This document shows positions 2,586 to 19,324 of a stretch of DNA of 51,409 nucleotides, piece after piece (position 1 is the stretch's first letter; the number at the start of each line of letters is the position of its first letter). Location of the stretch: contig JAQUDJ010000003.1 of the NCBI GenBank assembly GCA_028685755.1, positions 1 through 51,409 on the forward strand, given 5' to 3'. The stretch comes from Eubacteriales bacterium. GTDB lineage: Bacteria > Bacillota > Clostridia > Saccharofermentanales > UBA5734. A program made the translations under genes and the position numbers. Below the pieces are notes generated by a model, which saw only the letters and a program-made list of their open reading frames with translations, had not been told where the DNA came from and searched no databases.

Positions 2586-3851
2586 TTGGCCAGTTATTTA
2601 GTGCGGGGCGGCTTACGCTTAACCGGTGATGTCACAATTAGTGGGTCCAAAAATGCTGCGCTCGGTATAATTGCGGCAGCGACGATACTTGATGGCCCAT
2701 GCAAAATAGAGAACATTCCAGACGTTGCAGATATTAATGTTTTACTTGAAATCATTAAATCATTGGGCGCCGAAATCAGACGTGACAGTGAAGGCTCGCT
2801 CTACATAGACCCCATGCCAATAGACTCGTGGAGTGCTGACAATGAACGGGTACGCAGTATTCGCGGTTCCTACTATTTGCTCGGCGCAATGCTTGGGCGC
2901 TTCCAAAACGCTTCGATTTTGATGCCAGGCGGTTGTAATTTTGGCACGCGTCCGATCGATCAACATATGAAGGGCTTTGAAGCGTTGGGCGCGCATGTCA
3001 GTATCGAACATGGTCGCATTTCATTACATGCCGAAAAGCTCAAAGGCGAGAATATTTTTCTCGATGTCGTCAGTGTTGGGGCAACGATCAACATCATGAT
3101 TGCAGCGACTAAGGCTGAAGGGATCACAGTTATTGAAAATGCGGCTAAAGAGCCACATATTGTCGATGTTGCAAACTTCTTAAATACGATGGGTGCGAAT
3201 ATTCGCGGCGCAGGAACAGATGTTATCCGCATCACCGGGACCCCCGTTTTGCCGGCTGGCGGTTCTTACGCGGTCATTCCTGATCAGATTGAAGCGGGCA
3301 CGTATATGTTAGCGGCAGCGATTACGCGTGGCGATATTACAGTTCATGGCCTGATCCCCAAACACATGGAACCTTTAAGCGCTAAGCTCGAAGAAATGGG
3401 CGCCTCCATCGAACTAGGTGACGACTCCATTCGAGTATCGATCGAAGCAGGAAGTGACCTAACAGCTGCGAGCTTCAAAACGATGCCTTACCCGGGCTTT
3501 CCCACCGATCTGCAGCCCCAAACCACCGTTTTACTTTGTACTGTTCTAGGTACAAGTCGTATGTTCGAAAATGTCTGGGACAACCGTTTCCAATATATTG
3601 ATGAATTAAAAATGATGGGCGCGCAAATTATGACTTCTGGCCAAATGGCGATTATTGACGGTGTTCCGGAACTGTCTGGTGCTGTTGTGACGGCTCGTGA
3701 TCTGCGTGCCGGTGCTGCCATGGTTCTAGCTGGACTTGTCGCCGAGGGCACGACTGAAATAACTGATATCGCCAAAATTGAACGCGGCTATGAGAACTTT
3801 ACAGCCAAAATGCGGGCACTTGGAGCAGATATCACCCGTATCGAAAATTGA
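2586..3851 (+). CDS. murA: UDP-N-acetylglucosamine 1-carboxyvinyltransferase
   Basis: Catalyses the first committed step of peptidoglycan synthesis: transfer of enolpyruvate from PEP to UDP-GlcNAc, in the cytoplasm. It has the family start RGGLRLTGDVTISGSKNAAL, the active-site loop MPGGCNFGTRPID with catalytic C117, and the late motif PYPGFPTDLQPQ. The 421 aa length is typical. The start is TTG at 2586 after a GAGG; no ATG fits the family N-terminus. Its place between walK and walJ is unusual, since walH/walI usually sit there. Confidence 0.95.
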   Translation: MASYLVRGGLRLTGDVTISGSKNAALGIIAAATILDGPCKIENIPDVADINVLLEIIKSLGAEIRRDSEGSLYIDPMPIDSWSADNERVRSIRGSYYLLGAMLGRFQNASILMPGGCNFGTRPIDQHMKGFEALGAHVSIEHGRISLHAEKLKGENIFLDVVSVGATINIMIAATKAEGITVIENAAKEPHIVDVANFLNTMGANIRGAGTDVIRITGTPVLPAGGSYAVIPDQIEAGTYMLAAAITRGDITVHGLIPKHMEPLSAKLEEMGASIELGDDSIRVSIEAGSDLTAASFKTMPYPGFPTDLQPQTTVLLCTVLGTSRMFENVWDNRFQYIDELKMMGAQIMTSGQMAIIDGVPELSGAVVTARDLRAGAAMVLAGLVAEGTTEITDIAKIERGYENFTAKMRALGADITRIEN

Positions 3852-4654
3852 CTGGCGTTAAGATCTGCGCACTGCGAAGTGGATCCAGTGGGAATGCGAT
3901 TTTTGTCGGCAGCGGATCAACAAAAATATTAATTGATGCTGGTGTCAGCTTGCGTGATATTGAAGATGCCTTAAAAAGTATTGGCGAATCAGCAAGCGAA
4001 TTAACCGGTGTTCTCGTCACGCACGAACATTCCGATCACGGTCGCAGTGTTGGGGCGTTGATGCGCCGCTATCAGATGCCGCTTTACGTGAATCAGGGAA
4101 CTTATCAGGCACTGCGGTATCAGCTCGGCAAATACCCTGAGCACCTCGTCCATATCTTTGATAGCAATCAACCTTTCACAATAGGCCAGGAAGCTATGCA
4201 AGCGACTGGTTTTCGTACGTCACATGATGCTGCTGAATCCGTTGCATTTAAAATTGAAACGGCGCAAGGTGCGGTATCCGTTTGCACTGATTTGGGTTGG
4301 CCTGATCCAGTTTTACTCGATCAACTCGCCGGAAGTAGAGTGATTTATGTTGAAGCCAATTACGATCCGACGCTGCTGGCAGCCGGTCCTTATCCCCAGA
4401 TGCTCAAACAACGCATTTCTGGCGAATTTGGCCACTTGTCGAATGATGATAGCGCACGAGCGATTGCCCATTTTTTAAGTCGCGGCACGGAACGCTTTGT
4501 TTTGTCGCATTTGAGTAAAGAAAACAACTATCCTGAACTGGCGATGAGCACGGTGCGTGATCAATTAGCGTTACAACAAGCGCGAATTGGCGAGCATTTG
4601 CAAGTCAGCATCGCGCGGCGATTTTCGGTCAGCACACCAATTGAGCTGAGTTAA
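3848..4654 (+). CDS. walJ: WalJ/YycJ-type MBL-fold metallohydrolase
   Basis: Metallo-beta-lactamase-fold nuclease of the YycJ/WalJ family, linked to the WalRK system and implicated in DNA metabolism. The start resembles the family (ICALRSGSSGNAIFVG). The metal-binding motif HEHSDH is at about residues 58-63, and later ligands include SHD near 124 and LSHLSKENN near 220. It is 268 aa long. The TTG start overlaps the murA stop (TTGA), which implies translational coupling. No separate Shine-Dalgarno is obvious. A 12-bp tandem array starts at its stop codon. Confidence 0.88.
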   Translation: MTGVKICALRSGSSGNAIFVGSGSTKILIDAGVSLRDIEDALKSIGESASELTGVLVTHEHSDHGRSVGALMRRYQMPLYVNQGTYQALRYQLGKYPEHLVHIFDSNQPFTIGQEAMQATGFRTSHDAAESVAFKIETAQGAVSVCTDLGWPDPVLLDQLAGSRVIYVEANYDPTLLAAGPYPQMLKQRISGEFGHLSNDDSARAIAHFLSRGTERFVLSHLSKENNYPELAMSTVRDQLALQQARIGEHLQVSIARRFSVSTPIELS

Positions 4655-4696
4655 ACCGCAAGTTAAACCGCAAGTTAAACCTCAAGTTAAAGCAAA
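4649..4696 (+). repeat. 12-bp tandem array anchored on the walJ stop codon
   Basis: Four units, AGTTAAACCGCA twice, then AGTTAAACCTCA and AGTTAAAGCAAA. The first unit contains the walJ stop (TAA at 4652-4654), so each unit repeats the stop context. The array fills most of the walJ-rlmH gap. Confidence 0.9.
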
Positions 4697-4711
4697 AGGT
4701 AAATCCTGAAC

Positions 4712-5179
4712 GTGAAAATTCGCATTATTTCCCCGGGGAAAATTCGTGAAAAATATTTGCAAGATGCCGTTGAAATCGCGCAGCTAAATTTGCAACGGAA
4801 CTTGGCGACTGGGGACGCGATTGAAATTATTGAAGTAGAAGATAGCCCGGACACGTGGCCAGTTGACCGTGCGATGCAAATGGAAGCTGAACGAATTCGC
4901 GCGCGACTGTTGCCAGGTGATTATTTAATAGCGCTCGATTTGGCTGGTCATTGGCCCAAACAAGACAAGCGAGGGACACTCGCGCCGGATTTGGCACGAT
5001 GGCTTGGCGATGCGCGTGAATATACAAGTAATCTTGTGTTTATGATCGGTGGGTCAAATGGACTTGCACCTGAGCTCAAGCGACAGGCTCGGCAACGGAT
5101 ATGCTTATCTCAAATGACTTATACGCACCAAATGGCGCGATTGATTTTACTGGATTTACTTAATCAAGCGTGGATATGA
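4712..5179 (+). CDS. rlmH: RlmH-like 23S rRNA methyltransferase lacking the C-terminal tail
   Basis: SPOUT-fold methyltransferase family that methylates N3 of pseudouridine 1915 in 23S rRNA (helix 69) as a dimer. It starts KIRIISPGKIREKYL and has the SAM-binding IGGSNGL motif (about 111-117), then ICLSQMTYTHQMARL. It ends LLNQAWI, exactly where the family would continue with about nine more residues ending PYHK/R, a tail known to be needed for activity. At 155 aa it is slightly short. The stop lies inside the convergent rsgI-like gene (16 bp overlap). The start is GTG 4712. A second RlmH-like gene at 13139-13588 has the tail but a degenerate body. Confidence 0.85.
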   Translation: MKIRIISPGKIREKYLQDAVEIAQLNLQRNLATGDAIEIIEVEDSPDTWPVDRAMQMEAERIRARLLPGDYLIALDLAGHWPKQDKRGTLAPDLARWLGDAREYTSNLVFMIGGSNGLAPELKRQARQRICLSQMTYTHQMARLILLDLLNQAWI

Positions 5180-6393
5180 CGTGCCATTAATGCAATGAAA
5201 CGGTTGAACCCTTTACCTGGCATGAATAGTGATCCACCGGGACCGGGACCAGTACCGACGCCTGATCCAGCACCGGGATCGATTTGAGTTTCAGTTGCGG
5301 AATTTGCAGAGCTCGTGGGATTGCTAGATGGGTCAACCCCTGAGCCTGATTGGGAAGATTGTGAACCGTCACCATATGTTTCTTGTGCCGATGAAGGACT
5401 TGGTGCCACGGCATCCGAAGAGATTACGGTCTGGCTGCTCTGAGTATTTGTTTCAGATTGGGAAATCGCCGTTTCATAGGCTGTTGCATATTTTGTGGTC
5501 AAAGACTCCTGTTGAAGTTCTTCAACAGTTTCAAGCGATTCGATTGACGGGTTTAAGGTCAGATCAGTCAGTTGTTCGCTAGCATCTGGCATCAGATCGC
5601 CTTCGACGAGAAGGGATTGGGTGATAGAACCCGTTTGACTCGTTATGTTAATCACATCATTTGCTAACAGTGTATGAACCAACAAAGACAGGGGCGCGGT
5701 TGCGATTGTCGATTCATTCCAATCCTGGCAGAGATTTCTGGACTGGACGAGAAGGATTTGGCGACCAATTGTTAAGTGGTTTGCATGTGCATCATCAATT
5801 ACATGTTCATCATTTGAGAGGGCAACATGGACATCTAAGCCAGAAAATGTTCCGGATCCGTTGTGCCCTCGTAACGAATTTAATTGGGCGTGGAACTGAG
5901 TTTGCCCCTTGGGTAGTACCGCCGAGATAAGCACAGTATCCTCAACTAAAGCGGATTGTTGTTCCAATTTTTCAATCCAAATCGTGATTGCTTGTTGCCA
6001 CGGCAATCCAACAAGTGGCAGGTTAACAATTAGATTGGCGGAATCTGAATCAAAAACCTCAATGGCAATAACATTCAGTTGTCGATCGAGGGATAATTGC
6101 ATGCTGGATTTAACATCGACAGATACGTAGGCATACACAGGGTCATTCGCTAGCAAGTGTGTCGACCACAAGACTAAAGATACAATAATCAGCACAGCAA
6201 TTGACACGAGTGCGGGATAGGCCAAACGTTGCCAATTAAACCGGGTCATTTCTGGGTGATTTTCAGTTTGACCATACACGATTTCACGGCCAACCGCCAT
6301 TTCTGGAGTGAGTGGTAGCCGCAGCAATTGGCAGTCTGCCGTAAAAATCAGGGCATGACGGTGATCGATAGAGAGAACAACACCCGTTTTCAC
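5164..6393 (-). CDS. RsgI-like transmembrane anti-sigma factor
   Basis: Likely anti-sigma factor that holds the SigI-like protein encoded just upstream. The N-terminal RsgI_N-like domain (about 1-50) includes GVVLSIDHRHALIFTADC. A single membrane segment lies near residues 57-80, followed by an extracytoplasmic domain (about 85-250). The C-terminal half is rich in Ser, Thr, Gln, Gly and Pro and carries no carbohydrate-binding module I can recognise. GTG 6393 is preferred: it overlaps the sigI stop as GTGA and has AAAGGGGG at proper spacing, whereas GTG 6402 sits on top of that Shine-Dalgarno. In the extracytoplasmic domain the usual Asn-Pro of self-cleaving RsgI proteins appears as Lys-Ser (SVDVKSSMQL). 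Confidence 0.75.
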   Translation of the reverse strand: MKTGVVLSIDHRHALIFTADCQLLRLPLTPEMAVGREIVYGQTENHPEMTRFNWQRLAYPALVSIAVLIIVSLVLWSTHLLANDPVYAYVSVDVKSSMQLSLDRQLNVIAIEVFDSDSANLIVNLPLVGLPWQQAITIWIEKLEQQSALVEDTVLISAVLPKGQTQFHAQLNSLRGHNGSGTFSGLDVHVALSNDEHVIDDAHANHLTIGRQILLVQSRNLCQDWNESTIATAPLSLLVHTLLANDVINITSQTGSITQSLLVEGDLMPDASEQLTDLTLNPSIESLETVEELQQESLTTKYATAYETAISQSETNTQSSQTVISSDAVAPSPSSAQETYGDGSQSSQSGSGVDPSSNPTSSANSATETQIDPGAGSGVGTGPGPGGSLFMPGKGFNRFIALMARHIHA

Positions 6394-7112
6394 TGTGGAC
6401 ACCCCCTTTCAAAAGCGGTGAGGTATCCTTGGATTGTTTCAAATGATCCGGTCATCAGTAGCGTCAAAAATATAATGCTCGCACGGTTTTTTTCAATCGT
6501 TTTGACCGGAATATGACTGCGAAGCGAAAGTGCTTTGCCTGGTAGATGATGACTTTGATTTAACTGTTGATAGAACGATGTATCACTGACAATTAGTCGG
6601 GCAATTCGAAGGCAAAGACAGCGACAGTCCTGATGCTTAGGAAAATGATGGGTTATATTCGGTAAATCAAGACCAAATTCTTGTAAATGTAATTCCAAGT
6701 TAATCATTTCCTCGGCAAATTCTAAATTTTGCTGGACACGTTCGCTTTGTGGATCTGCGATCTTTTCCTCAAGGGCCAGTCCATTTTCTGGATCTTGTGC
6801 TGACAGCGAAATTGTCCTTGCATTTTTTTGTTGCTTTCGGAGCCAGTCGAAAATTCGATTCCGCATGACGAGGTAAGCAAAGGTTTCAAACGATGCGGTG
6901 CTGTCAGATTTGTAATGATCAAGCGCGACATTAAACGACTCTAAAGCGATTTCAAATTCATCTGTTTGCTCAACAAAAAAGGTGTGAGTTATTTGTGCGA
7001 CTGCATGTTTGATAAACGTCAAGCTTGAGGTGATAAACTGCTCACGCAAGGCAATATCACCCGCTTGAATTTGGATAACGATCGATTTGGTGTCGCCAGA
7101 TAAAGGGTTCAT
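6390..7112 (-). CDS. sigI: SigI-like RNA polymerase sigma factor
   Basis: Alternative sigma factor of the SigI group, which responds to heat or to extracellular polysaccharide in Firmicutes. Region 2 features (IQAGDIALREQFI, then FETFAYLVMRNRIFDWLRKQQK near 100) are clear. The C-terminal part with helix-turn-helix-like LSLRSHIPVKTIEKNR matches SigI rather than typical ECF factors. It is 240 aa from ATG 7112, which follows AAAAGGG at 8 nt; an upstream GTG at 7145 has no good site. It is start-stop coupled to the rsgI-like gene. The two large exported proteins upstream on the same strand are candidate regulon members. Confidence 0.8.
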   Translation of the reverse strand: MNPLSGDTKSIVIQIQAGDIALREQFITSSLTFIKHAVAQITHTFFVEQTDEFEIALESFNVALDHYKSDSTASFETFAYLVMRNRIFDWLRKQQKNARTISLSAQDPENGLALEEKIADPQSERVQQNLEFAEEMINLELHLQEFGLDLPNITHHFPKHQDCRCLCLRIARLIVSDTSFYQQLNQSHHLPGKALSLRSHIPVKTIEKNRASIIFLTLLMTGSFETIQGYLTAFERGCPQ

Positions 7113-7275
7113 GCAAATTACCCTTTTGTAAGGTGATACCCTCACATATAAATACGAAGTTAAACAAGTATTTCGGAGGGTCTAATGCAAAGAAAGTTCA
7201 ATCAAATGACATAATAAGTAATTAGTACATTCAGTTTATCACGATTTTATGACACTAATCAGATTGATTATTACA

Positions 7276-7317
7276 TAAATAAAAGAAGGCAGTTTCTGAG
7301 GTCATCAGAAACTGCCT
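7276..7317 (-). terminator. Rho-independent terminator (minus strand)
   Basis: A 13-bp stem (AGGCAGTTTCTGA / TCAGAAACTGCCT, 7287-7317) is followed on the minus strand by a T-rich tract. It ends the transcript of the 7346-8569 gene and separates it from sigI. Confidence 0.85.
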
Positions 7318-7345
7318 GAAAATTGCCATCAAAAATTCATCTGTC

Positions 7346-8569
7346 TTATCTGGTCTTGCGCCCACCATTGCTGTTAGGAATGACGACATCAACATCGATC
7401 CACGTTACATATTGGCCATTAATGTACGATACTTCCTGTCTATTGTCCGATAATTCTTCGGCCATAATGCCATGTGAAAAGACATAATGTTCGTCATTAT
7501 TGACGATCGCGCCTTCAAGAGTAATGTTGGGGTCATTGAGATAGAAGGTAATGCGGTGCTTTCCTGCCTTTTGCGGAACCCAACCACCGCCAGCTGAAGC
7601 AAAATTCATCTTGCCGCTTGGTCCGATTGCCGGTTCAATATCAATATCATAGTAATTATCGCCATCAAACACTTCGACTCGGAACTTGTTGGTCAAGACG
7701 GTCGCATAATAGCTTTCGTAGGCAGCTTGATTTGTACCGTAAACCTCTTCTGCGGAACTCGGGTAATCAAGACACGCCATTTTGTAAGCAGTCATCAAGC
7801 CATCATCGGGTAGTTTGGTATACAAGTAAAGCTCAACTGGAAAGCGATAGCCAACAAGTGGGTTAGTCGTTTCTAATGGATTTCCCCAGTCGACGAAATC
7901 GATTTTGACTAAACTATCTGCGCGCACCCAATCGGCTTGCCATGTGTTTTTGTAATTCTCGACGTATTCAGTCTGCCAATAGAGATTATCAAGGAGTGAA
8001 AGTGGTGTATTGACGACCGGTATGATTGCAAGTGCTTCGGTTGTAAATGCTGTCGCTTGTGGAAACCATGGCCCATAAGTTGGTAACCAATCCGTCATCA
8101 GAACGGGCGTCGTCGTATCAACTAAACCATCAGGGACAGTTTCCCGCGTCTCATTATTGATCAGGTCAGCTGTATAATACCCGTCGATTTCGTTGCCATA
8201 CAGAATGTATTCAACATAATATTCCGGGGTGCCATCTGGAGGATCGACCTGCCCGAGATATTCATCGGGGTGTGCATCAGACATATCTGCAGCCACCGTC
8301 AATGGGATGAGTGCATTCGAACTGTCTTTTACCAAGAAGATTTCGCTACCGTCATAAACACCGTCTGCATCGATATCAATCCATTGCTTCGTGTAAAACA
8401 GCTCCACATCATCCGTAATAACGACAGGTGTGGCTAAATTATTGTATGGTGCTTCTAAAAGTTGGGCAGCAATGGGTTTGACCTTTTTCGCAGCAAAGAC
8501 ATCACCTGAAATAGAAAACACCATGGTTAGAATTAGGAAAACAGCTAGCAATAAATAAGTTTTTTTCAT
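7346..8569 (-). CDS. Exported protein of unknown function
   Basis: 407 aa. An N-terminal signal peptide (MKKTYLLLAVFLILTMVFSI, cleavage likely after DVFAA) predicts export. The mature part is acidic and aromatic-rich. It has a calcium-loop-like stretch, DIDADGVYDGSEI, near residue 65, and repeated Tyr/Trp segments. I recognise no catalytic motif. ATG 8569 follows AAGGAG at 9 nt. It sits 82 nt downstream of the giant exported protein gene on the same strand, so the two are probably one operon. It may be a partner of that surface protein. Confidence 0.7.
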   Translation of the reverse strand: MKKTYLLLAVFLILTMVFSISGDVFAAKKVKPIAAQLLEAPYNNLATPVVITDDVELFYTKQWIDIDADGVYDGSEIFLVKDSSNALIPLTVAADMSDAHPDEYLGQVDPPDGTPEYYVEYILYGNEIDGYYTADLINNETRETVPDGLVDTTTPVLMTDWLPTYGPWFPQATAFTTEALAIIPVVNTPLSLLDNLYWQTEYVENYKNTWQADWVRADSLVKIDFVDWGNPLETTNPLVGYRFPVELYLYTKLPDDGLMTAYKMACLDYPSSAEEVYGTNQAAYESYYATVLTNKFRVEVFDGDNYYDIDIEPAIGPSGKMNFASAGGGWVPQKAGKHRITFYLNDPNITLEGAIVNNDEHYVFSHGIMAEELSDNRQEVSYINGQYVTWIDVDVVIPNSNGGRKTR

Positions 8570-8651
8570 AAAAGCCAACTCCTTTGTATTTGGTAGGACA
8601 TGATTCTATGGATCGGGGAATCAGGTTACAAGGTCTACCTCTGCCCAGTGA

Positions 8652-11600
8652 TTAGGGCTCGTTCTCAACTGGTTTGTTGCGAACCTCGATTACTCCGTGA
8701 TTTCGTACGATTCGGCGGAAAATCGCGTCACTTTGTGGCGCGCCGGTTGTCGGATCTGACCCACTCTCATTCCAAATCGCGTAGAAGACCGAGCCATCTG
8801 GGGTCATTCGAATTTGAGCTTCAGCTTGCGCAGGGGTCCAGTTGCCACGATCTTTGGCCAACCAGTCCCAAACTTGAACTTGATCACCTGCTAAATCACT
8901 TTCACCATCTGGATTGATCGTCTTTGTTTCGGTGAAGTAGGATTCACCTTGGTTTAGGCTGTAACTGTAGTACAGATCCAGTGGGCTTGCCGAGATTTCG
9001 TCATCATCATAGTCGTCACTGGTATTTGAATCAACATTCAACTCTGTGCCATAGGTCACCCAAAAGGCATTGGGGTTTTGGGTATCTTCCGGATACTTTG
9101 CAACGCCATCTGTGTAGATTGTGCCAGGAACACCAACGAGTCGCGGTTCTATGACACTTTCTTTGTTGTTGCGCAATAGCGATAAGTTCTGAGCTGGCTC
9201 AAATTCGCCAGCAGCATACGTTGTGGAGGCAGGATAGAAACCGCCACCATCAGCTTTTGAATTTCGGTAGATATCTGTATGAGTGACACCACTACCGTAT
9301 GGGTCGGTTGTCCAGTCATTACCACCATTGAACGAACGTCGGACATATAAGTCGTATTTGTCGTTGCCATTGCGCGATGCTGTCCAGTTTGGCGTCCAGG
9401 TATAGGCGACTGCCAGGAAATCACCCCGGAGGAAGCCACGATGCGCACGGGCATCATCGTTCTCATATGCGCTAGTATGATCGTTGAGATTGGCTTCGCT
9501 TTGACTCCATTTCAACATTTTAATTTTTTCATCATCATCATAATCTTCGCTTGCAACGAGTGTCACACTACTGATATTTTGAATATCATTCTCCACAAGA
9601 TTTTCGATTCGGTATGGGTTGTCAGTCGAAGTCTTAGTGGTGGTCCAACGCTGCATGATGATGTCGGAGGGCCGTCCTTTGCCATCCTCGCCCATTTTGT
9701 ATAGCACGACCATAACCGTTCCGCTTAATCCAATATTGGCTCTTGATTGAACTAAAAAGCGAGGGCGACGGGCATTTTGATAAGCGGGGATGCGATCGCC
9801 TAAATAATCGAGAATGATTTCGCCGTTTGCATCTTTCAGATAAAGAGTATTACCAGATTCATCTTTCTCAGGTGGATTAAGAATCCTACCGCTACTAACA
9901 CAAGCCATACTAGTGAAATTTGAACTGTGGTAGATAACATTTTTACCCAAATCAGCATAGTACTTGTCCGAGCCTTCGCCAGTATGCTCTTCCTCGCTTT
10001 CTTCTTCGAGGTAATGCTCAGTTGGCGTACCTGCTCCGATTCCTTTGGTTTCTTCATAACCGAGAATTGCCCATTTACCTTGCATCATCAAATTGGGTCG
10101 TGAAGCACCGGTATCACCATCCATTAGATAACCTTCTAAAGTAATTGCAACGTATTTGACCTCACCCTGGTTATTGATCTTCTTGTAAAAACGAATGTAA
10201 GGATGGGCATCATTCCAGAGCAGACCTTTAAGCTTATAACCATATGCGTGCGAGCCGTCGGCATCACCGGTGCCTTCATTACCATCAAGATCTGCAAAAA
10301 TGTATGTCGGTTCGATAACAGCGGCATCTAACAACAATTCGGCTAACGCGAATTCTGGTTCTAATTGGTCAGGATCTAGAGCAGTAGTCTCTTCAGTCAC
10401 AGCTGTCGTCTCGGACGTTGTTTCTGCCGTCGTTTCAGCGGTGGTTTCAGCGGTGGTTTCTGTTGTCGTTTCAGCGGTGGTTTCTGTTGTTGTTTCTGCC
10501 GTCGTTTCAGCGGTGGTTTCTGTTGTCGTTTCTGCCGTCGTCTCCACTGTCGTTTCAGCGGTGGTTTCAGCCGCGATGTCAAAATTGACAGAATCGAGTG
10601 TAGAAGCTGCCTCATAAACCTCACTTGGCTCGATTAGAACGCTCGACGTTTCGACAGATGGCACATCAGAAGGTGCAGTGTCCTGAGAGGTTTCTTGAGG
10701 GGTTGTTTCGGTGGGTGGCACATCCGAAGGTGCAGTCTCCTGAGAGGTTTCTTGAGTGGTTGTTTCGGTGGGTGGCACATCCGTAGGTGCAATGTCTGGG
10801 GAGGTTTCTTGAGGGGTTGTTTCGGTGGGTAGATCTTCATCCACGAATGGATCTTCAACTTCCGCCATAGCATCATCTAACAAGAGGTCGACTGGTGCCA
10901 AAATCGATAACGAGGTCAAAGATAAGCCAATATCCTGATCAAAGAAATGATTAATATCTGCAAGATCAATTCGCCAGAATAAATCATAATCATCATCTTC
11001 TGGATCTGTGCTCTCTCGGTGGAAATAAACCTCTTCAAACGCATTAAGATCCGCAGTATATTGGGTCAGTTCGTGAATCTTCATGTTTTCTGTATTGAGG
11101 GTGTCATTGTCACTTAGTCGGATGGGTAGGGTCATTTGGTTTAGGGCTTTGAAGCGACCATCGCCATCGCCGTTCTTATCTTCTAATTCATATTGAGGAT
11201 CCTCATTACTCGATTCAAAATCCGGATCCGCCGCATCAAATTTGCTAGCCGAGATATAGGAGTACCAAATATCGGTTTTGTGATTGGTGGTTGCACCGCT
11301 CCAGCCTTCACCTGGACCGGCTTGTTCACCTGGCATTAATCCCTCGGGATCTTCTTGCCAGACAAGGGCGAAACCATCGCCACTACTGGCAATCGTAATT
11401 TGATTTGCATCACGACGACCCGATGTGAGGCGCTCGGCCTTGGACCACGCGATCTCACCAAGGGGGGTTACATAACCACGGGCAATCCAAACGGTACTAT
11501 AAGGCAACTCGATATTATAGCCGTCTTCACCATAAAATCTGGAGCGCTGCGGCCCACTTACGCCCCAGATGTCTTCGACGTAACCTGCTTCACCTTCAGC

Positions 11601-12746
11601 AATAGCATAGGTTGGTCGGCCACCTCGGGCATATTTGCTCGTCCAGGCAACGAGGATGCGATTGCCTTGTACTTTAATATTCGGTTTGTGAGTATCTCCA
11701 AAGAATGGACCGGCGTCCGCCCCTTGTGTCGTTGCAAAAGAGGTTCGATCTGATGAGCGAGATAAGTTAAACCGCTTCCACGTTTCACCTTCATCTAACG
11801 AGATGGAGGCCCAAACATCCTTTGCTCGTTCCGAGATAATCTCAGTACCAGAAACTGCCGGGATTTCATAATCCGAATAAGGCGTCTCTTCCGAATAGAC
11901 TGCAACAAGTGGCTTGACTTCATCTCGAACACTTTGTACAACTCCGCGTTCATTCCGATAGGTCACTTCTACAGGGTCGCCGTTAGCACGCTGGGCTGGC
12001 ACATATGTTGTCAAAATTTCAATTTTCGCTTTGTCGGTCGTGGTTTCTTCCATCTTCGAGACATTTTTTGTATGCGCGATCGGTTTGATCTGATGCGAGA
12101 AGCTTGAACCGTTAAAAGCGCTTCCAACTGTAAATGTTGGATCATCGGCGTCGCCGACCCAAGCATCAGATGAATAGACATTTTTACCGTCCGAACCAAT
12201 CAACCGCAAAAAAACAACAACATTGAGGTTTAATCGATCAGCTTCTTCCGGTAACCATGTGATACCCACATCATTAAATAGATCCAGGGTAATCAAATGA
12301 GATGCAACAAGTGGGCTGAAAGTTTGTTTAAATGGAAATCGAGCGGTGACAGGCATTTGGGTTTCAGACATTGGAATAGGATCTGGACTCACAAATGCAC
12401 GAATGGCTTGTACTTTCCATACTGTTGTGATGTCAACTGGAGATGATGGTGCTTCTAATTCCGCAGTTCGTCCAGGTTCTACAAAAATCATAAGTTGGGA
12501 TTCATTGTACGTGATCGTTGCCTGACCAACGACGAACCGTTCCATAACTTTCGTCTTGGCGTTCTTTTTGACTATAAACATCTCCTTGACGACATCACGT
12601 TCGCGATCCTTGATATAGATTTCATATCCTTTGAGATCCTCTGCTAATAATTCATCACGGGTTATTTCAACGACTGTAAAACCACAATTGACGACAAGGA
12701 ATATGGATAAAGAAAGAATAATGGCCAGTGCTTTTTTCCAAGGCAT
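8652..12746 (-). CDS. Giant exported protein, choice-of-anchor O-like, with Thr/Glu repeat insert
   Basis: 1364 aa. The start is ATG 12746 (MPWKKALAIILSLSIFLVV), a signal peptide or anchor, after AAGGAG at 12756-12761; an upstream TTG would add an unlikely 23 residues. The body has several sialidase/BNR-like Asp-box-type segments (SLDEGETWKRF, NGGNDWTTDP, SLNQGESYF). From memory the C-terminal third (SRNGNDKYDLYVRRSFNGG, RPSDIIMQRW, AEAQIRMTPDGS) resembles the choice-of-anchor O family known mainly from Gram-negative bacteria. The middle (about residues 635-800) is low-complexity Pro/Glu/Thr followed by ETTA repeats. No LPXTG motif or terminal anchor is visible. The function is unknown; a secreted or surface adhesin-like role is inferred. 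Confidence 0.65.
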   Translation of the reverse strand: MPWKKALAIILSLSIFLVVNCGFTVVEITRDELLAEDLKGYEIYIKDRERDVVKEMFIVKKNAKTKVMERFVVGQATITYNESQLMIFVEPGRTAELEAPSSPVDITTVWKVQAIRAFVSPDPIPMSETQMPVTARFPFKQTFSPLVASHLITLDLFNDVGITWLPEEADRLNLNVVVFLRLIGSDGKNVYSSDAWVGDADDPTFTVGSAFNGSSFSHQIKPIAHTKNVSKMEETTTDKAKIEILTTYVPAQRANGDPVEVTYRNERGVVQSVRDEVKPLVAVYSEETPYSDYEIPAVSGTEIISERAKDVWASISLDEGETWKRFNLSRSSDRTSFATTQGADAGPFFGDTHKPNIKVQGNRILVAWTSKYARGGRPTYAIAEGEAGYVEDIWGVSGPQRSRFYGEDGYNIELPYSTVWIARGYVTPLGEIAWSKAERLTSGRRDANQITIASSGDGFALVWQEDPEGLMPGEQAGPGEGWSGATTNHKTDIWYSYISASKFDAADPDFESSNEDPQYELEDKNGDGDGRFKALNQMTLPIRLSDNDTLNTENMKIHELTQYTADLNAFEEVYFHRESTDPEDDDYDLFWRIDLADINHFFDQDIGLSLTSLSILAPVDLLLDDAMAEVEDPFVDEDLPTETTPQETSPDIAPTDVPPTETTTQETSQETAPSDVPPTETTPQETSQDTAPSDVPSVETSSVLIEPSEVYEAASTLDSVNFDIAAETTAETTVETTAETTTETTAETTAETTTETTAETTTETTAETTAETTAETTSETTAVTEETTALDPDQLEPEFALAELLLDAAVIEPTYIFADLDGNEGTGDADGSHAYGYKLKGLLWNDAHPYIRFYKKINNQGEVKYVAITLEGYLMDGDTGASRPNLMMQGKWAILGYEETKGIGAGTPTEHYLEEESEEEHTGEGSDKYYADLGKNVIYHSSNFTSMACVSSGRILNPPEKDESGNTLYLKDANGEIILDYLGDRIPAYQNARRPRFLVQSRANIGLSGTVMVVLYKMGEDGKGRPSDIIMQRWTTTKTSTDNPYRIENLVENDIQNISSVTLVASEDYDDDEKIKMLKWSQSEANLNDHTSAYENDDARAHRGFLRGDFLAVAYTWTPNWTASRNGNDKYDLYVRRSFNGGNDWTTDPYGSGVTHTDIYRNSKADGGGFYPASTTYAAGEFEPAQNLSLLRNNKESVIEPRLVGVPGTIYTDGVAKYPEDTQNPNAFWVTYGTELNVDSNTSDDYDDDEISASPLDLYYSYSLNQGESYFTETKTINPDGESDLAGDQVQVWDWLAKDRGNWTPAQAEAQIRMTPDGSVFYAIWNESGSDPTTGAPQSDAIFRRIVRNHGVIEVRNKPVENEP
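10405..10575 (-). repeat. 12-bp coding tandem repeat (Glu-Thr-Thr-Ala type)
   Basis: About fourteen 12-bp units such as GTTTCAGCGGTG (plus strand) encode E-T-T-(A/T/V/S) on the minus strand. The open reading frame is kept throughout. Near-identity of many units suggests recent slippage and likely length variation between strains. Confidence 0.9.
10660..10835 (-). repeat. 57-bp coding repeat (19-residue Pro/Glu/Thr unit)
   Basis: About three units of 19 codons, reading like PPTETTPQETSQDTAPSDV with few changes, lie next to the 12-bp array within the same protein. Confidence 0.85.
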
Positions 12747-12815
12747 ATGCATAATCTCCTTGTGGATGAAGATGATTACGGCAAAATGCTTCTCAACGCG
12801 TTTTTTGCGAAACAA

Positions 12816-13069
12816 CTTGCCGTGACGACCTGGTCTGCTGTTGTTGGGTTATTTTCTAAAGCAAGCAAGTGTTCCATCCCCCCTTTTCCAGAAAAGTATT
12901 ATAAAGTTACATTAAATTAGCGTAAAATTTACTAACGCACCAAGATATACGAATGGCATCGGCCATTTCAGAGGGCTAATCTAGCTAAATTCGTTGTTAT
13001 CATAAAATATAATATGAAACCTCTGGCGATCTATTTTGCTTATATTGAGATTCGTCTGTTGAATGACGA
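12816..13069. other. Non-coding spacer upstream of the giant exported protein gene
   Basis: AT-rich and without a convincing gene. On the minus strand a TATAAT (about 12898-12903) could be the -10 box of the giant protein gene, with a weak TTTACG-like -35. I see no clear SigI-type promoter (ACCCCC...CGAA) in the expected orientation. The left boundary is taken from the 12815 end of the longer reading frame; translation proper starts at 12746. Confidence 0.4.
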
Positions 13070-13107
13070 CAAAAAAACTGCTACCCAGCATGGCGCGTCG
13101 TAGCAGT
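13070..13107 (-). terminator. Terminator of the trp operon (minus strand)
   Basis: An 8-bp stem, ACTGCTAC (13077-13084) with GTAGCAGT (13100-13107), is followed on the minus strand by seven T. It lies about 30 nt past the end of the second RlmH-like gene, so that gene is the last of the trp transcript. Confidence 0.88.
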
Positions 13108-13138
13108 CCCGAGATGTTATGTTTTATTGCTCGTGCGT

Positions 13139-13588
13139 TTATTTGTGGTAGGCTTTGTGCTCCATGATCCGAAAAGCCCGGTATATTTGCTCGGTTAAAA
13201 GCAATCCAGCGGTATCGCCACTGAGTGCGAGGGGTGACAGGGAGAGGGTGCTAAGTAAGATGGTGCCAAGAGTAGGGATCGACGGTGGGTTTTCGCTAGG
13301 TTCGGTCACGGGACCACTCGCACCGATGTGAAAAACAAGTTGACTTTTACCAGCGGTCATCCACGTTTGAATTTGATCAGAAAACGCTGGCGAGGTATAG
13401 GTTTGCCCCCTGCGGTCCAAATAAATATGCTGAATCGTAGGGGATACATCAGCGTCCGAGCCCTGACTGGTGCCAGTTTGCCAAACGAGCGAACAGCTTT
13501 GCGACAAGCGCTTTTTATATTCAAGCAAGCCCGCTAAAATCGGCGCAGGCAGCTTATTCTCATCAAAGAGCAAGGTGATCTTTAACAT
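13139..13588 (-). CDS. Divergent RlmH-like SPOUT protein at the end of the trp operon
   Basis: 149 aa. The C-terminus matches RlmH well: LSLSPLALSGDTAGLL, then LTEQIYRAFRIMEHKAYHK, including the YHK tail. The rest is divergent. The SAM-loop motif reads FHIGASGPV in place of IGGxxG, and the N-terminal half retains only patches (KKRLSQSCSL, IYLDRRGQTYTSPAFS). It starts 6 nt after trpG, without a strong Shine-Dalgarno. It may be a degenerate paralogue, a partner of the tail-less RlmH at 4712-5179, or a methyltransferase with another target. Confidence 0.72.
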   Translation of the reverse strand: MLKITLLFDENKLPAPILAGLLEYKKRLSQSCSLVWQTGTSQGSDADVSPTIQHIYLDRRGQTYTSPAFSDQIQTWMTAGKSQLVFHIGASGPVTEPSENPPSIPTLGTILLSTLSLSPLALSGDTAGLLLTEQIYRAFRIMEHKAYHK

Positions 13589-13594
13589 CGCGGA

Positions 13595-14161
13595 TCAAAC
13601 ACCCACAAAGGCTTTTAACATCTGCTGGCCATAGTCGGTGAGTATTGATTCTGGGTGGAATTGCAGACCAAAAACGGGCATGGTTTTGTGTTGCAAGGCC
13701 ATAATTAGACCATCTTCACTGGTTGCTGTCACAGCTAAGCAGTCTGGCATTGAGCGCGGATCGGCCATCAGCGAATGATAACGGCCGACTTCGACTTTGG
13801 GCGGGAGATTTTTGAACATCGGGCAATTGCGGTCGAGACTGATCATGGACCGTTTGCCGTGTACAGGGACAGGGGCTTGGATGATTTGGGCTCCGAAAGC
13901 TTCGGCGATCCCTTGATGCCCCAAACAAATGCCAAGCAGCGGTACTTGACCGGCAAAATGGCGAATAACTGCCGGCATAATGCCGGCATCGGCGGGATAG
14001 CCCGGTCCGGGCGACAGGATGATATGCGACGGCTTTAATGCTTCGATTTCGTTAATTGTTAAGACATTATTGCGATAGACTTCAATGTCGGGATGGAATT
14101 CGCCGACCATTTGATAGACGTTATAGGTGAAGGAATCGAAATTGTCGAGCAGCAGAATCAT
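13595..14161 (-). CDS. trpG: Anthranilate synthase component II (glutamine amidotransferase)
   Basis: Supplies ammonia from glutamine to TrpE for anthranilate synthesis. It is a class I glutamine amidotransferase with the nucleophile in LGICLGHQG (C79), and with H169 and E171 in FHPES. The oxyanion motif SPGPGYPADAG is near residues 50-60. The 188 aa length is normal. The start ATG overlaps the trpE stop (ATGA). It could also serve folate synthesis as PabA, but its context is the trp operon. Confidence 0.95.
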   Translation of the reverse strand: MILLLDNFDSFTYNVYQMVGEFHPDIEVYRNNVLTINEIEALKPSHIILSPGPGYPADAGIMPAVIRHFAGQVPLLGICLGHQGIAEAFGAQIIQAPVPVHGKRSMISLDRNCPMFKNLPPKVEVGRYHSLMADPRSMPDCLAVTATSEDGLIMALQHKTMPVFGLQFHPESILTDYGQQMLKAFVGV

Positions 14162-15663
14162 AAGTAGTCACCTGCTTGATTGATCGCCGCAAACAAGGCC
14201 ATTGCCTTGTTGACGGTTTCTTGGTATTCGGTTTCGGGTACTGAATCGGCCACGATCCCCGCTCCAGATTGGACGTGGATCTGACCATCGCGCAAAATGG
14301 CGGTACGGATTGTAATGCAAGTATCGAGCAGTCCGTCAAAGCCGAGATAGCCGATTGCGCCGCCATATGGACCGCGCCGGACGTTTTCGAGCTCATCGAT
14401 GATTTCCATCGCGCGGATTTTGGGTGCTCCGGATAGTGTGCCGGCAGGCAGCAGCGATGAGAGTACGTCGATTGCGGCGCGGTCTTCACGCAATTCGCCC
14501 TCAACGGTGGTCACGAGATGCATGACGTGGGAAAATCGTTCGACGTGACAAAAATCACGGACTGCGACGGTCCCGAATTGGCTGATGCGGCCGACATCGT
14601 TGCGCGCGAGATCGACGAGCATCGCGTGCTCGGCTAATTCTTTGGTGTCCGCGAGTAAATCAGCGGAGAATTGATCGTCTTGTTCGACAGTCTGACCGCG
14701 CGGTCTGGTCCCCGCGATTGGACAGGTTTCAATACGGCGACCCGATAACCGAACGAGCATTTCAGGGGAAGCGCCAATGAGCACAGCCTCACTTTGACGG
14801 ACAAAAAAGAGGTATGGCGATGGATTGACGTGCCGCAACGCGCGATAAATTGCGAAGGGGTCAGCTTTGTAGGCGGCTGAAAAGCGCTGGGAAAGTACGA
14901 CTTGGAAGATGTCACCCTCTCGAATATAGGCCTTGGCTTGCTGGACCTGAGCGACAAATTCATCGTGTGTGACATTGGCTTTAAAATCGAGTTGCATGGA
15001 ACGACGGCTTGCATGCGGTAACGCGACGGGCAAGTTGCCGGGTTGTGGTCCAAAGAGTTGGTTAATGAGGTTAAACAGCTGCGCGGAAGCGAGGTTATAA
15101 TCACGCGCCGGATCATCACTGATCAGGCAATTGCAAATCAAGGTCATTTCATTCTTGAGATGGTCGTAGCGAACGACTTCAGCAGGCGCCATGAGCTCAC
15201 AATCAGGCAAATTGAGCGGGTCAGGATTATTATCGGGTAGGACTTCAAGATAGCGGACAAAATCATAGCTAAAATGACCCACGAGCCCACAACGGAAACC
15301 TTCTTCGGCTGGTGCCGGAGGCAGGGCATGATCCTGAAGCAATTGGCGGATGAGGTCGAGCGGATGTTGGCTGTCGTAGGCTTGGAGGGGGAGGTCGCTG
15401 AGTGCATAATGCACGATATTGCGCCGGCTTGTCAGACGCAAAAGGGGTTTGCGACCCATGATGGAAAACCGCGCCCACCGTTCACCGCCAACGACCGATT
15501 CTAAAAGAAATGATTGCTTTTGATCATCAAAGCGTTGAAAAAGGGATATCGGGGTCACGGTGTCGGCGGGCATCCGCACGGATACTGGGACGATCCGGTA
15601 CTGTTTGGCGAGCTCGAGAAAGGCGCCGCGTTCGGGGAAGATGGGCAAACCGTGATCAGCCAT
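14158..15663 (-). CDS. trpE: Anthranilate synthase component I
   Basis: Converts chorismate to anthranilate with ammonia from TrpG. It is 501 aa. The chorismate-binding C-terminal domain (about 230-495) shows DIFQVVLSQRF, IAGTRPRG, DLARNDVGR, SLLPAGTLSGAPK and GGAIGYLGFDG, all hallmark blocks. The N-terminal domain has the LLESVVGGERWARFS segment used in tryptophan feedback binding. ATG 15663 follows AGGAGG at 6 nt, just after the trpA stop. Here trpE and trpG come last among the trp genes instead of first. Confidence 0.95.
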   Translation of the reverse strand: MADHGLPIFPERGAFLELAKQYRIVPVSVRMPADTVTPISLFQRFDDQKQSFLLESVVGGERWARFSIMGRKPLLRLTSRRNIVHYALSDLPLQAYDSQHPLDLIRQLLQDHALPPAPAEEGFRCGLVGHFSYDFVRYLEVLPDNNPDPLNLPDCELMAPAEVVRYDHLKNEMTLICNCLISDDPARDYNLASAQLFNLINQLFGPQPGNLPVALPHASRRSMQLDFKANVTHDEFVAQVQQAKAYIREGDIFQVVLSQRFSAAYKADPFAIYRALRHVNPSPYLFFVRQSEAVLIGASPEMLVRLSGRRIETCPIAGTRPRGQTVEQDDQFSADLLADTKELAEHAMLVDLARNDVGRISQFGTVAVRDFCHVERFSHVMHLVTTVEGELREDRAAIDVLSSLLPAGTLSGAPKIRAMEIIDELENVRRGPYGGAIGYLGFDGLLDTCITIRTAILRDGQIHVQSGAGIVADSVPETEYQETVNKAMALFAAINQAGDYL

Positions 15664-15665
15664 GG

Positions 15666-16574
15666 TCAACCTCCTTGCAATGCGGCTAACGTGCCTTCAT
15701 CCAGGGCTTCCCGGAGGCTCGACACATATATACCGAGCTGGTCAGCCAGTTGCTGGGCGTTGAGTCCGGCGGCGTGACCCTCACCGATGCGTCGCACAAT
15801 AGCACTACCGACGATGATTCCATCCCAACCAGCCGCGAGTTCACGAACTTGATCGGGCGTTGATATCCCAAAGCCGAGGGCCCGCGGAATCGGACTGACG
15901 GCACGCACGGCCATTTCAAAGGTCGACAAATCTGCGGATAATTCGCTGCGCTCCCCGGTGACACCGAGCGCTGCGACACAGTAGACAAAGCCACGGCCGT
16001 TAACCGTCAATTCTGACAGCCGCGGCCCTGATAGCGGTGAAACCATCCGGGTGATGATGACATCATGCGAGTCGGCGATTGGACCGACTTCGTCCTGTTC
16101 TTCAAGTGGCAAATCGGGCACAATAATCCCGTCGACACCGACGTCGCGGCATGTGGCAAAGAACAAATCCAAGCCCATTTGCACGACGGTGTTGTAGTAC
16201 AACAAGAAAAGGATTGGCTTTTGGGTCTCGGCGCGGAGCTCGCGGACGAGATGAAACGCATCGACAATCGACGTGCCGTGTGCCAGCGCGCGGGCATCTG
16301 CGGCCATGATCGTCGGTCCATCGGCGCTCGGATCAGAAAAGGGGACACCGATTTCGAGGATGTCTGCGCCGCTGTGCAGGATTGTGCGGGCGATCGCCTG
16401 CGAGGTGCGCAGATCCGGATCACCGGCAACGATGAAGGGGATTAACGCTTTGCGACCTTGGGTAGCAAGCTCGGCCAGCTTCTTTTCAAGGCGATTGGTG
16501 GGCGTGGCTGTCGTGGCCGGTGTGTCTGGTGTGACTGGTGAGGTGCCAGGCACCTTGATGGGTAAATCGCTCAT
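15666..16574 (-). CDS. trpA: Tryptophan synthase alpha chain
   Basis: Cleaves indole-3-glycerol phosphate to indole, which passes to TrpB. The TIM barrel has catalytic Glu in DILEIGVPFSDPSADGPT and Asp in IVPDLPLEE, plus the phosphate loop GFGISTPDQV. It is 302 aa, longer than the usual 260-270. The extra length is an N-terminal low-complexity Pro/Thr stretch (about residues 8-28) before the family start RLEKKLAEL. ATG 16574 is at proper distance from GGAGG; ATG 16580 would be too close. Confidence 0.94.
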   Translation of the reverse strand: MSDLPIKVPGTSPVTPDTPATTATPTNRLEKKLAELATQGRKALIPFIVAGDPDLRTSQAIARTILHSGADILEIGVPFSDPSADGPTIMAADARALAHGTSIVDAFHLVRELRAETQKPILFLLYYNTVVQMGLDLFFATCRDVGVDGIIVPDLPLEEQDEVGPIADSHDVIITRMVSPLSGPRLSELTVNGRGFVYCVAALGVTGERSELSADLSTFEMAVRAVSPIPRALGFGISTPDQVRELAAGWDGIIVGSAIVRRIGEGHAAGLNAQQLADQLGIYVSSLREALDEGTLAALQGG

Positions 16575-16576
16575 CG

Positions 16577-17809
16577 TCATTCCTCCCGATTGTCGGTCAG
16601 CAGCAGACCGTGGTCTTGTTGATACGCTTGAATCGCTGCGACGTCTTTATCGCCACGCCCGGAAAGGGTGACCACGACGATATCGTCAGGCTTGAATTCG
16701 CCAGCCATTTTGCGTAACAGTGCGAGGGCGTGTGAACTTTCGATCGCAGGGATGATCCCTTCCTGACGAGCCAACCACGCAAATGCCTCGACGGCTTCTA
16801 AGTCTGTAATTGCAGCGTATTCGGCACGGCCAGTGTGTTGCAACCAGGCATGTTCGGGGCCGATGCCCGGATAATCCAGTCCGGCAGAGATCGAATAGAC
16901 TGGTGCGATTTGCCCCGTCTGGTCTTGTAAAAACAGGGAGTGCATCCCGTGAAATACACCTGGCTTACCGTAAGCCATAGTGGCTGCGTGTCGGGGGGTA
17001 TCGATGCCTTCGCCGGCAGCTTCCGCGCCGATCAAACGGACAGTTGGCTCATCGATAAAGGGGTAAAACGTCCCCATGGCATTACTGCCGCCACCGACAC
17101 AGGCGATTAAGGCGGTGGGCAAGCGGCCATATGTAGCTTGGCACTGCTCGCGGATCTCATCTCCGATGATGCGCTGGAAATCGCGGACGATCGTCGGATA
17201 GGGATGGGGCCCCATGACTGAGCCAATCACATAATAGGTATCATCGGCGCGACGGGTCCATTCGCGCATTGCTTCACTGGTGGCATCTTTGAGTGTCGCT
17301 GTGCCGGAGGTCACTTTTGTCACTGTCGCACCCAAAAGCTCCATGCGGTAAACATTGAGGGCTTGGCGCTCCATGTCTTCAGCGCCCATAAAAACAGTAC
17401 AGGTTAAACCAAACAAAGCTGCCGCAGTGGCTGTGGCTACACCATGCTGACCTGCCCCAGTTTCGGCGATCAAGCGCTTTTTGCCCATCCGTCGGGCCAA
17501 AAGAACTTGCCCGAGGACATTGTTGATCTTATGCGCGCCAGTATGGTTCAAATCTTCGCGTTTAAGGTAGACGTGAGTGCCTAGTTCTGAACTTAGCCGT
17601 TCGGCGTGATAAAAGAGGGAAGGGCGACCAGCGTAATCGCGCAACAGTCGTTGATAGTCTGCAATGAATGAAGGATCCGCCATCGCTTCTTTGTAGGCTT
17701 TTTCTAATTCGAGGAGCGCGGGCATCAGGGTCTCAGCTGCATATCGGCCGCCATAGGGGCCAAAGCGTCCGGGTTTGCTAGTCGCGGGGGTATTTTGTGC
17801 AGGGTTCAT
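16577..17809 (-). CDS. trpB: Tryptophan synthase beta chain
   Basis: PLP enzyme joining indole and serine to form tryptophan. It has the start [17 protein letters not shown], the PLP lysine in [11 protein letters not shown], the glycine-rich phosphate loop [12 protein letters not shown], and the C-terminal TLSGRGDKD. The 410 aa length fits TrpB1, the classic partner of TrpA. ATG 17809 follows AAGGA at 9 nt. It overlaps or abuts trpA and lies 4 nt after trpF. Confidence 0.96.
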
Positions 17810-17813
17810 GTAG

Positions 17814-18494
17814 TCACGTCCTTTCAGTCTGACGCACCGTCTGACAAAAAGCTTGCATCAGATCGGCTTGTTTTTCTAAGTTACGTTCGATGCCACTCGA
17901 GCAATCGACAATTGCAGGCTGCATGGCGTTGATTGCGGTGGCAACATTGTCTGGGTTGAGACCACCAGCACAGGCGACACGGTGGTTTTGGGCAAATTCA
18001 TGGAGGAGTGCCCAAGGGAACGTGATACCGGTGCCGCCACTTTGACCGTCTAGTTCAGTGTCGAGCAGCCAGACCGTGGGACGGGCATCGGGCAAGCGCA
18101 TCAAGGTCATCATCTGTTCATAGTCTGCCACACGGCGGGCGGCGAAACTAGCATCTACGGGGATGCTAAGCTTCTGCCAAATTTCAACACCTGGTGGCAG
18201 CAATTCGCGCAAACTATTCCATTCAGCACGCCCTTCATGTCCATGGAGTTGAACCACGGCAAGACCAACCATCCGGGCGATGGCCGCAATTTTTTCAGGC
18301 TTTTCATCAACAAAAACACCGACCGCCTTAATCGTTGGGTCGAGCTGACTAATCAGTGCGGCGGCCAGTTCTGGGGCGACCTGACGTTTGCTCGGCGCAA
18401 AGATTAAACCGATATAATTTGGCGAATAGACATTGGCTAAAGCGATGTCTTCGTGGCGCCGCATCCCGCAGAACTTGATCAATGGCTGGCTCAT
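17814..18494 (-). CDS. trpF: Phosphoribosylanthranilate isomerase
   Basis: Isomerises N-(5-phosphoribosyl)anthranilate to CdRP. The family start [11 protein letters not shown] contains the catalytic Cys; VQLHGHEG (about 83) and the C-terminal [11 protein letters not shown] and DCSSGIE phosphate-binding motifs are present. It is 226 aa. The ATG overlaps the trpC stop (ATGA). Confidence 0.94.
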
Positions 18495-19324
18495 CCGGGC
18501 ATCTCGCTGTAAAGGTTGAGGATTGTCGAGCCGACTTGGTCAAATGCCGTAGCGGAATCTGATGCGCGCATCAAGGTCTCACCAACCAGCACGGCATGAG
18601 CGCCCGCGCGATAGACCCGCGCCATATCACGCGGGGTGACGATGCCACTTTCGGCAACGACAATCCGATCTTGCGGAATTACACCGGCAAGACGTTCGGT
18701 CGTGCCGAGGTCAACTTGGAAAGACTTCAAATCACGGTTGTTAATGCCAATTATGTGGACGCCACAATCCAAGGCCCGCATGAGTTCTTCCATAGTATGG
18801 ACTTCGACTAATACAGATAATCCGAGACTTTTGGTTTGGGCATAAAATTCGCGAATTTGCGGATTGCTGAGCAAGGCGACGATCAACAAAATGGCCGATG
18901 CGCCTAAGAGCCGAGCCTCGTAGATTTGGTAGGCATCGATTGTAAAATCCTTGCGGAGAATCGGTTGCGGAACGGCGGCGTGAATCGCGCGCAGATGTTC
19001 GTCTGAGCCGAGAAAAAAGTCTTCCTCAGTTAAAACGGAAATCGCTTGGACGTTCGCTGCCGCATAGGCCATGGCCTGTTCGACCGGCCGGAAATCAGGG
19101 GCAATGATGCCTTTGGAAGGCGAGGCCTGTTTGATCTCAGCAATCAAGCCTAGACTTTTGGGCTTGATCAGAGCAGCCGCAAAATCTGACGGCTGTTGTG
19201 TGAGAGCCTCGGCATCACGGCGAAGCTGTTCGAAGGCAATGGTGTTTTGGCGTTGATCGAGGCGAAAGCGCTTCTGATCGACGATCCGATCGAGGATTGT
19301 GCCGGTTGTTGTGATGTGTGTCAT
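18491..19324 (-). CDS. trpC: Indole-3-glycerol phosphate synthase
   Basis: Closes the indole ring from CdRP. It has the hallmark IAEIKQASPSKGII (catalytic Lys and Glu), VLTEEDFFLGS, ILRKDFTIDAYQIYEA, and the later GINNRDLKSFQVDL and VAESGI blocks. It is 277 aa. The ATG overlaps the trpD stop. Confidence 0.95.
   Translation of the reverse strand: MTHITTTGTILDRIVDQKRFRLDQRQNTIAFEQLRRDAEALTQQPSDFAAALIKPKSLGLIAEIKQASPSKGIIAPDFRPVEQAMAYAAANVQAISVLTEEDFFLGSDEHLRAIHAAVPQPILRKDFTIDAYQIYEARLLGASAILLIVALLSNPQIREFYAQTKSLGLSVLVEVHTMEELMRALDCGVHIIGINNRDLKSFQVDLGTTERLAGVIPQDRIVVAESGIVTPRDMARVYRAGAHAVLVGETLMRASDSATAFDQVGSTILNLYSEMPG

Follow-up and report, generated by a model that had tools for sequence, protein, structure and literature searches.

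The window analysed here is the whole 51,409-nucleotide stretch at positions 1 to 51,409 of contig JAQUDJ010000003.1 (GenBank assembly GCA_028685755.1), from a clostridial genus that NCBI lists under the name 'Mageeibacillus sp.' (UBA5734, UBA5747). It carries two genes of the RlmH family, which we call rlmH-A and rlmH-B (products A and B; Table 1). A stands in the usual gene order walR-walK-murA-yycJ-rlmH, and B is the final gene after trpE-trpG. Both match the family model PF02590 (cut-off 27 bits), A with E=2.4e-26 and 93 bits over model positions 1-141 of 154 only, and B with E=1.3e-18 and 67.9 bits over positions 63-154. A PF02590 search of the whole assembly, which is 96.6% complete, returned A and B and no third RlmH. 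The RlmH equivalog models of NCBIfam are reached by neither copy, with scores of at most 87.4 bits for A and 51.8 bits for B against curated cut-offs of 141-242 bits.

In the E. coli RlmH dimer, S-adenosylmethionine (SAM) is bound by one monomer and the essential catalytic residues come from the C-terminal tail of its partner (Koh 2017, PMC5430550). Aligned to this protein, whose numbering we use unless stated otherwise, A retains MIGGSNGL and THQMAR and with them the SAM-pocket motifs GGSNG, T136 and H139 (A numbering). It ends in LLDLLNQAWI, without the Y152-H153-R/K154 tail. The residues lost from A (Y23, R26, S81, Q139, R142, which is replaced by Q, I146, Y152, H153 and K154) lie mainly on the partner side. 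Those lost from B include G9, E56, G104, G107, T126, H129 and R133 and lie mainly on the SAM side: the loop region reads HIGASGPVTE, there is no GGxxG loop, and the position of H129 is taken by G. B retains R26, the E138-R142-Y152 triad and H153-K154, and its C-terminal end is EQIYRAFRIMEHKAYHK. A and B share 3 of the 23 columns that are near-invariant in 30 single-copy RlmH sequences of the order; a further 10 survive in A only and 9 in B only, and 1 is lost from both.

Monomer models of the two proteins built with AlphaFold2 agree with these assignments. The model of A is a complete RlmH fold with a mean confidence score (pLDDT) of 94.7, and its best structural matches are the RlmH structures 1vh0, 4fak and 1to0. 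That of B has a pLDDT of 85.3 and also matches RlmH best; it retains helices a1, a3 and a5 but not a2 and a4, which lie on the solvent side. Helices a1, a3 and a5 lie at the RlmH dimer interface (Koh 2017, PMC5430550), in which bights 1 and 3 also take part, and in these monomer models the interface helices are predicted in both A and B. The initial annotation, made from the sequence alone, had described two RlmH copies with complementary features, and both the PF02590 matches and the alignment to E. coli RlmH bear this out. It was right about the tail missing from A and the loop degraded in B; it understated the extent of the losses, which also take in R26 and R142 in A, and T126, H129, R133 and two helices in B.

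Because the SAM pocket and the tail come from different monomers in E. coli, the losses in A and B are split along a known composite active site. The substitutions E138A/Q, Y152F, H153F and R154A each bring the activity of E. coli RlmH below detection (Koh 2017, PMC5430550), and a homodimer of the tail-less A should therefore be dead. We infer, with a probability of about 0.8, that the RlmH of this genome is an obligate heterodimer of A and B, which produces 3-methylpseudouridine at position 1915 of 23S rRNA (m3Psi1915). What the analysis shows directly is the homology, the complementary loss of residues, the purifying selection, the recurrence, the near-strict co-occurrence and the predicted folds; the complex, its methylation of Psi1915 and the inactivity of either homodimer are strong inferences. 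The obligate heteromer proposed in the initial annotation is supported, and it can be generalised beyond the window.

Hypothetically, A would bind SAM in its intact knot, and B, no longer a SAM-binding protein, would dock through helices a1, a3 and a5 and supply R26, the E138-R142-Y152 triad, H153 and K154 for catalysis and ribosome binding. On this view the ancestral homodimer had two equivalent active sites, of which one would have been retained, and each gene would have shed the half that it no longer needed. One working subunit per dimer is known to suffice in the SPOUT enzyme NHR (PMC4409310), and a 2022 review of SPOUT enzymes infers that catalysis by the RlmH dimer involves just one of its cofactor sites (PMC9508554).

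Table 1. Features of the two rlmH genes in the window, and of the element found in a second genome (G386)
Feature	Position	Strand	Remarks
yycJ-type metallo-hydrolase	3848..4654	+	customary upstream neighbour of rlmH
rlmH-A, putative SAM-pocket subunit, tail-less RlmH	4712..5179	+	155 aa, GTG start, TGA stop
Intact GGSNG SAM-loop motif of A (E. coli 103-107)	5048..5062	+	from alignment to E. coli RlmH
SAM-pocket histidine codon (E. coli H129)	5126..5128	+	present in A, gone in B
Stop codon of A, upstream of catalytic tail Y152-H153-R/K154	5177..5179	+	from sequence; tail absent in the 3 species of the genus with A
Hairpin and T-run just 3' of B	13068..13109	-	probable trp operon terminator (weak statistics)
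rlmH-B, putative tail-donor subunit, loop-degenerate RlmH	13139..13588	-	149 aa; follows trpG after 6 nt
Intact catalytic segment of B, EQIYRAFRIMEHKAYHK	13142..13192	-	E138, R142, Y152, H153, K154
Degenerate SAM loop of B, IGASGPV	13307..13327	-	deleted in sister species; model pLDDT <50 at loop and beyond
trpG	13595..14161	-	in sister genus g3 convergent with single rlmH, 15-43 bp apart
SCC-like serine-recombinase element in rlmH 3' end	L184 (G386 contig C15), oriented from A: 3041-18990		removes YHK, carries B and type I restriction-modification genes

The hairpin that follows B folds at -15.6 kcal/mol (z -1.76); its loop is too long for a simple terminator scan, which hence missed it. Downstream of A lies a pair of RsgI/SigI-type anti-sigma and sigma genes (5164-7145), with 16 bp shared by the RsgI gene and the end of A. 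In the sister species G002, too, A is followed by an RsgI-like gene; in G001 it is not. Between the two rlmH genes, 8652-12815 encodes a protein of 1387 aa and secreted type that contains long repeats of threonine and glutamate (ETTAETT).

The pair is not confined to one assembly. Orthologues of A occur in two sister species (G001 and G002), where they are likewise tail-less and end in ..ANAWL* and ..VKAWRCSV*; orthologues of B occur in both of these and in G004. In G001 and G002 the glycine loop of B is deleted altogether, and the B proteins end in YRAFRILEGKAYHK and GKSYHK (tails GKAYHK/GKSYHK). Every resolved genome of the genus (G000, G001 and G002) has both the tail-less and the loop-degenerate copy. 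The ratio of nonsynonymous to synonymous substitution rates (dN/dS) between G001 and G002 is 0.10 for A and 0.26 for B, and both genes are under purifying selection in the genus. Another sister species, the fourth after G001, G002 and G004, lacks the whole region. In G004 the 3' end of B is also duplicated beyond a sir2-type gene (L236, contig C269, about 1920-2070 and 3090-3500). Four further genomes in which A or B appeared to be missing (G003, G005, G007 and G014) were set aside as counter-examples, because yycJ and/or trpG is missing from the assembly or the contig breaks off within the gene. The initial annotation had named a complete RlmH beside an unrelated second protein in relatives as the pattern that would speak against it. 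This pattern was not seen: the other genera of the family have one complete RlmH and no B.

The surroundings of the genes suggest how the window pair may have arisen. In sister genus g3 a single intact RlmH lies exactly between yycJ and a convergent trpG, and in G001 A and B are convergent, about 160 bp apart and flanked by the same two neighbours, which fits an inverted duplication in place. Acquisition of B is a possible alternative, since the approximately unbiased (AU) test does not reject one common origin for all copies of B (p=0.42).

Tail-less and loop-degenerate copies also recur together outside the genus, as the initial annotation had proposed to look for. In a class-wide sample of 393 genomes, with follow-up of candidates, nine more genomes from several clostridial families encode a tail-less RlmH together with another RlmH, about 130 aa long, that has no SAM loop, in addition to the window genome, G001 and G002. 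The partition of residues is the same throughout. Across 12 A and 14 B sequences (two of the B copies have no resolved A, and position 154 falls below the conservation cut-off in this set), A keeps G9, E56, G107, T126 and H129 in 12/12 and Y152 in 0/12. B has lost E56, G104, G107, T126, H129 and R133 in 14/14 and keeps R26, Q139, Y141, R142, I146, Y152 and H153 in 14/14 and E138 in 13/14. In five of these genomes the two genes overlap or adjoin: they overlap by 4 bp in G377, a single-contig genome, their frames overlap in G313, and A adjoins B in G247, G481 and G423. Between G247 and G481 dN/dS is 0.17 for A and 0.14 for B. The order to which G247 belongs comprises 8 genomes with a single intact gene, 4 with complementary pairs, 1 with a B that a contig edge separates from its partner and 6 without RlmH.

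The loss of the tail is tied closely to the presence of B. In each of the nine genomes outside the genus that have B and in which A is resolved, A is tail-less. None of the 80 lowest-scoring single-copy RlmH genes of the sample is tail-less inside its contig, and among about 150 best-scoring rows only one intact-frame gene without B, that of G539, ends before position 153; about 100 single-copy rows of intermediate score lie outside this control count. Tail-less A with and without B thus stands at 9/9 vs ~1/229 (p about 2e-15, with genomes that are not independent and counts that are approximate). Several candidates were rejected on inspection. The contig of G560, an apparent tail-less single gene, stops 2 nt past the match; the genes of G302 and G445, two others of the best-scoring rows without B, are broken and do not make up pairs; and the extra rlmH 3' fragments of G308, G277 and G373 accompany a full-length RlmH and resemble att-site or broken copies. 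The single-copy RlmH proteins of G504 and G433 (L086 and L087) carry the tails KYDK and SYNK in place of YHK, and may be inactive or use another residue. Most or all genomes of family f3, in the order of the window (e.g. G027, G029, G037 and G040), and of family f6 (G189 and G292) are without any RlmH; entire families thus seem to have lost m3Psi1915.

With the tail columns excluded, a single clade of tail-less A is rejected (AU p=0.0005; G377, a very long branch, was omitted), and the tail must therefore have been lost more than once. The non-window B copies form one clade (support 100/99). B sits on a long branch, and long branches weaken the tree; we make no claim of independent origins for B. 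The B genes of G386 and G257 are nearly identical and their A genes are not, which points to horizontal transfer.

The genome of G386 shows one way in which a tail can be removed. Its A stops right after GE(R) and runs on into TGATTTACCGAATACATGACTCC, a junction found nearly identically in G257 and G539. At a distance of 15.9 kb the element end recurs in inverted form, and next to it stands GEPYHK*, the displaced tail of the host gene (attR). In other words, a mobile element resembling the staphylococcal cassette chromosome (SCC) has inserted into the 3' end of rlmH, with attL and attR in that end and inverted repeats at its termini. Between its ends are a large serine recombinase (Resolvase and Recombinase domains), a tyrosine integrase and genes for type I restriction-modification; B lies close to the distal end. 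In G233, of the same genus, a related serine recombinase and genes for a DNA methylase/endonuclease come directly after a full-length RlmH (L237, contig C17, 1598-4250); this is a variant of the element that restores the tail, as in SCC elements.

These arrangements suggest that some elements may carry B to replace the tail they cut off. We tentatively propose, at somewhat less than even odds, that insertion cuts the host tail and a SAM-dead B restores it in trans; later the element would be lost and B kept, and the halves would degenerate into an obligate two-gene enzyme, which would make this a new route from a homodimer to a heterodimer. The window pair would then either have been domesticated long ago or be a separate case, in which the gene was duplicated in inverted orientation between yycJ and trpG. 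If it is true that an element-borne B rescues the enzyme its own element breaks, this would be a new kind of insertion insurance, at a site also used by SCCmec.

Several observations weigh against the heterodimer. A and B of the window lie in different operons (walRK and trp), and their co-expression is not guaranteed. A retains E138 in 2 of the 3 species of the genus, which is more than a pure pocket subunit requires. In G004 B lies at a contig end and no A locus with yycJ was found, and the tail-less RlmH of G539, which has the G386 junction and a serine recombinase, was found without a B, on a contig that ends inside the element (L240, contig C43, 4549-7223). Finally, RlmH is absent from whole families of the order. 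The modification is thus dispensable, and it is conceivable that both genes are decaying after a duplication and that their complementarity is coincidental. The long branch of B would suit such decay, which we nevertheless regard as quite improbable: the frames are open in every species, dN/dS between related species is 0.10-0.34, the losses hardly overlap (1/23 columns lost in both), and unrelated genomes show the same partition.

That A is truncated only through an assembly or frameshift error is barely conceivable, even though the genomes are draft assemblies. The tail-less A of the sister species ends at the same place with unrelated downstream DNA, so the stop that the initial annotation wished to see confirmed is genuine and not a sequencing error; these species already refute an artefact, and the truncation also appears in independent lineages including G377. 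Two functional alternatives accept the genes as real. A and B might each form a homodimer with a new job, B for instance as a non-methylating ribosome-binding factor, as its R26, R142 and K154 without a SAM site would allow, and A, with its full SAM pocket, using the tail of another protein or another substrate. We consider this improbable, as it gives no account of why A is tail-less in all nine outside genomes in which it is resolved beside B and almost never otherwise, or of why A and B genes overlap or adjoin. Alternatively, the heterodimer might be regulatory or chaperone-like and not catalytic on Psi1915, with the place of B in the trp operon coupling it to tryptophan supply. This is very improbable to us, given that all residues found essential by Koh 2017 are present once per pair and kept in all B copies (for E138, with the exception in the tally above).

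If A and B do form a heterodimeric RlmH, they provide a natural and repeated confirmation of the composite-active-site model, which has so far rested on crystal structures and point mutants. They would also show that a homodimer with two equivalent sites can become an obligate heterodimer via complementary loss, and has done so more than once. A clean test is enabled, in which two inactive proteins are expected to be active only when mixed. In the open-access literature, to which the search was confined, no previous account of an RlmH that is split or heterodimeric was found, and we know of none.

The canonical RlmH/YbeA/OrfX homodimer (PF02590; E. coli 5TWJ, S. aureus 4FAK) shares with the window pair the fold, the composite active site, the residues of each half-site and the locus of A beside yycJ. 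However, a single gene encodes it and every chain contains both halves, whereas each chain of the window pair has one half and has lost the other. The engineered NHR heterodimer with one inactive subunit still methylates RNA, with reduced activity (PMC4409310), but it is a laboratory construct with a point mutant, and the window pair is natural with complementary losses. In yeast, the duplicated SPOUT paralogues Upa1 and Upa2 co-purify and are thought to be heterodimeric on early pre-60S particles (PMC8994135). They are eukaryotic and belong to another SPOUT family, their heterodimer is assumed by the authors, and no split of SAM pocket and tail is reported for them. To our knowledge, SCCmec and Enterococcus cassette chromosome elements leave rlmH complete. 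Like the G386 element, they are serine-recombinase elements at the same place in rlmH, with the recombinase beside rlmH, att ends and variable cargo (PMC6222049). Unlike them, the insertion in G386 removes YHK and brings with it the tail-donor B.
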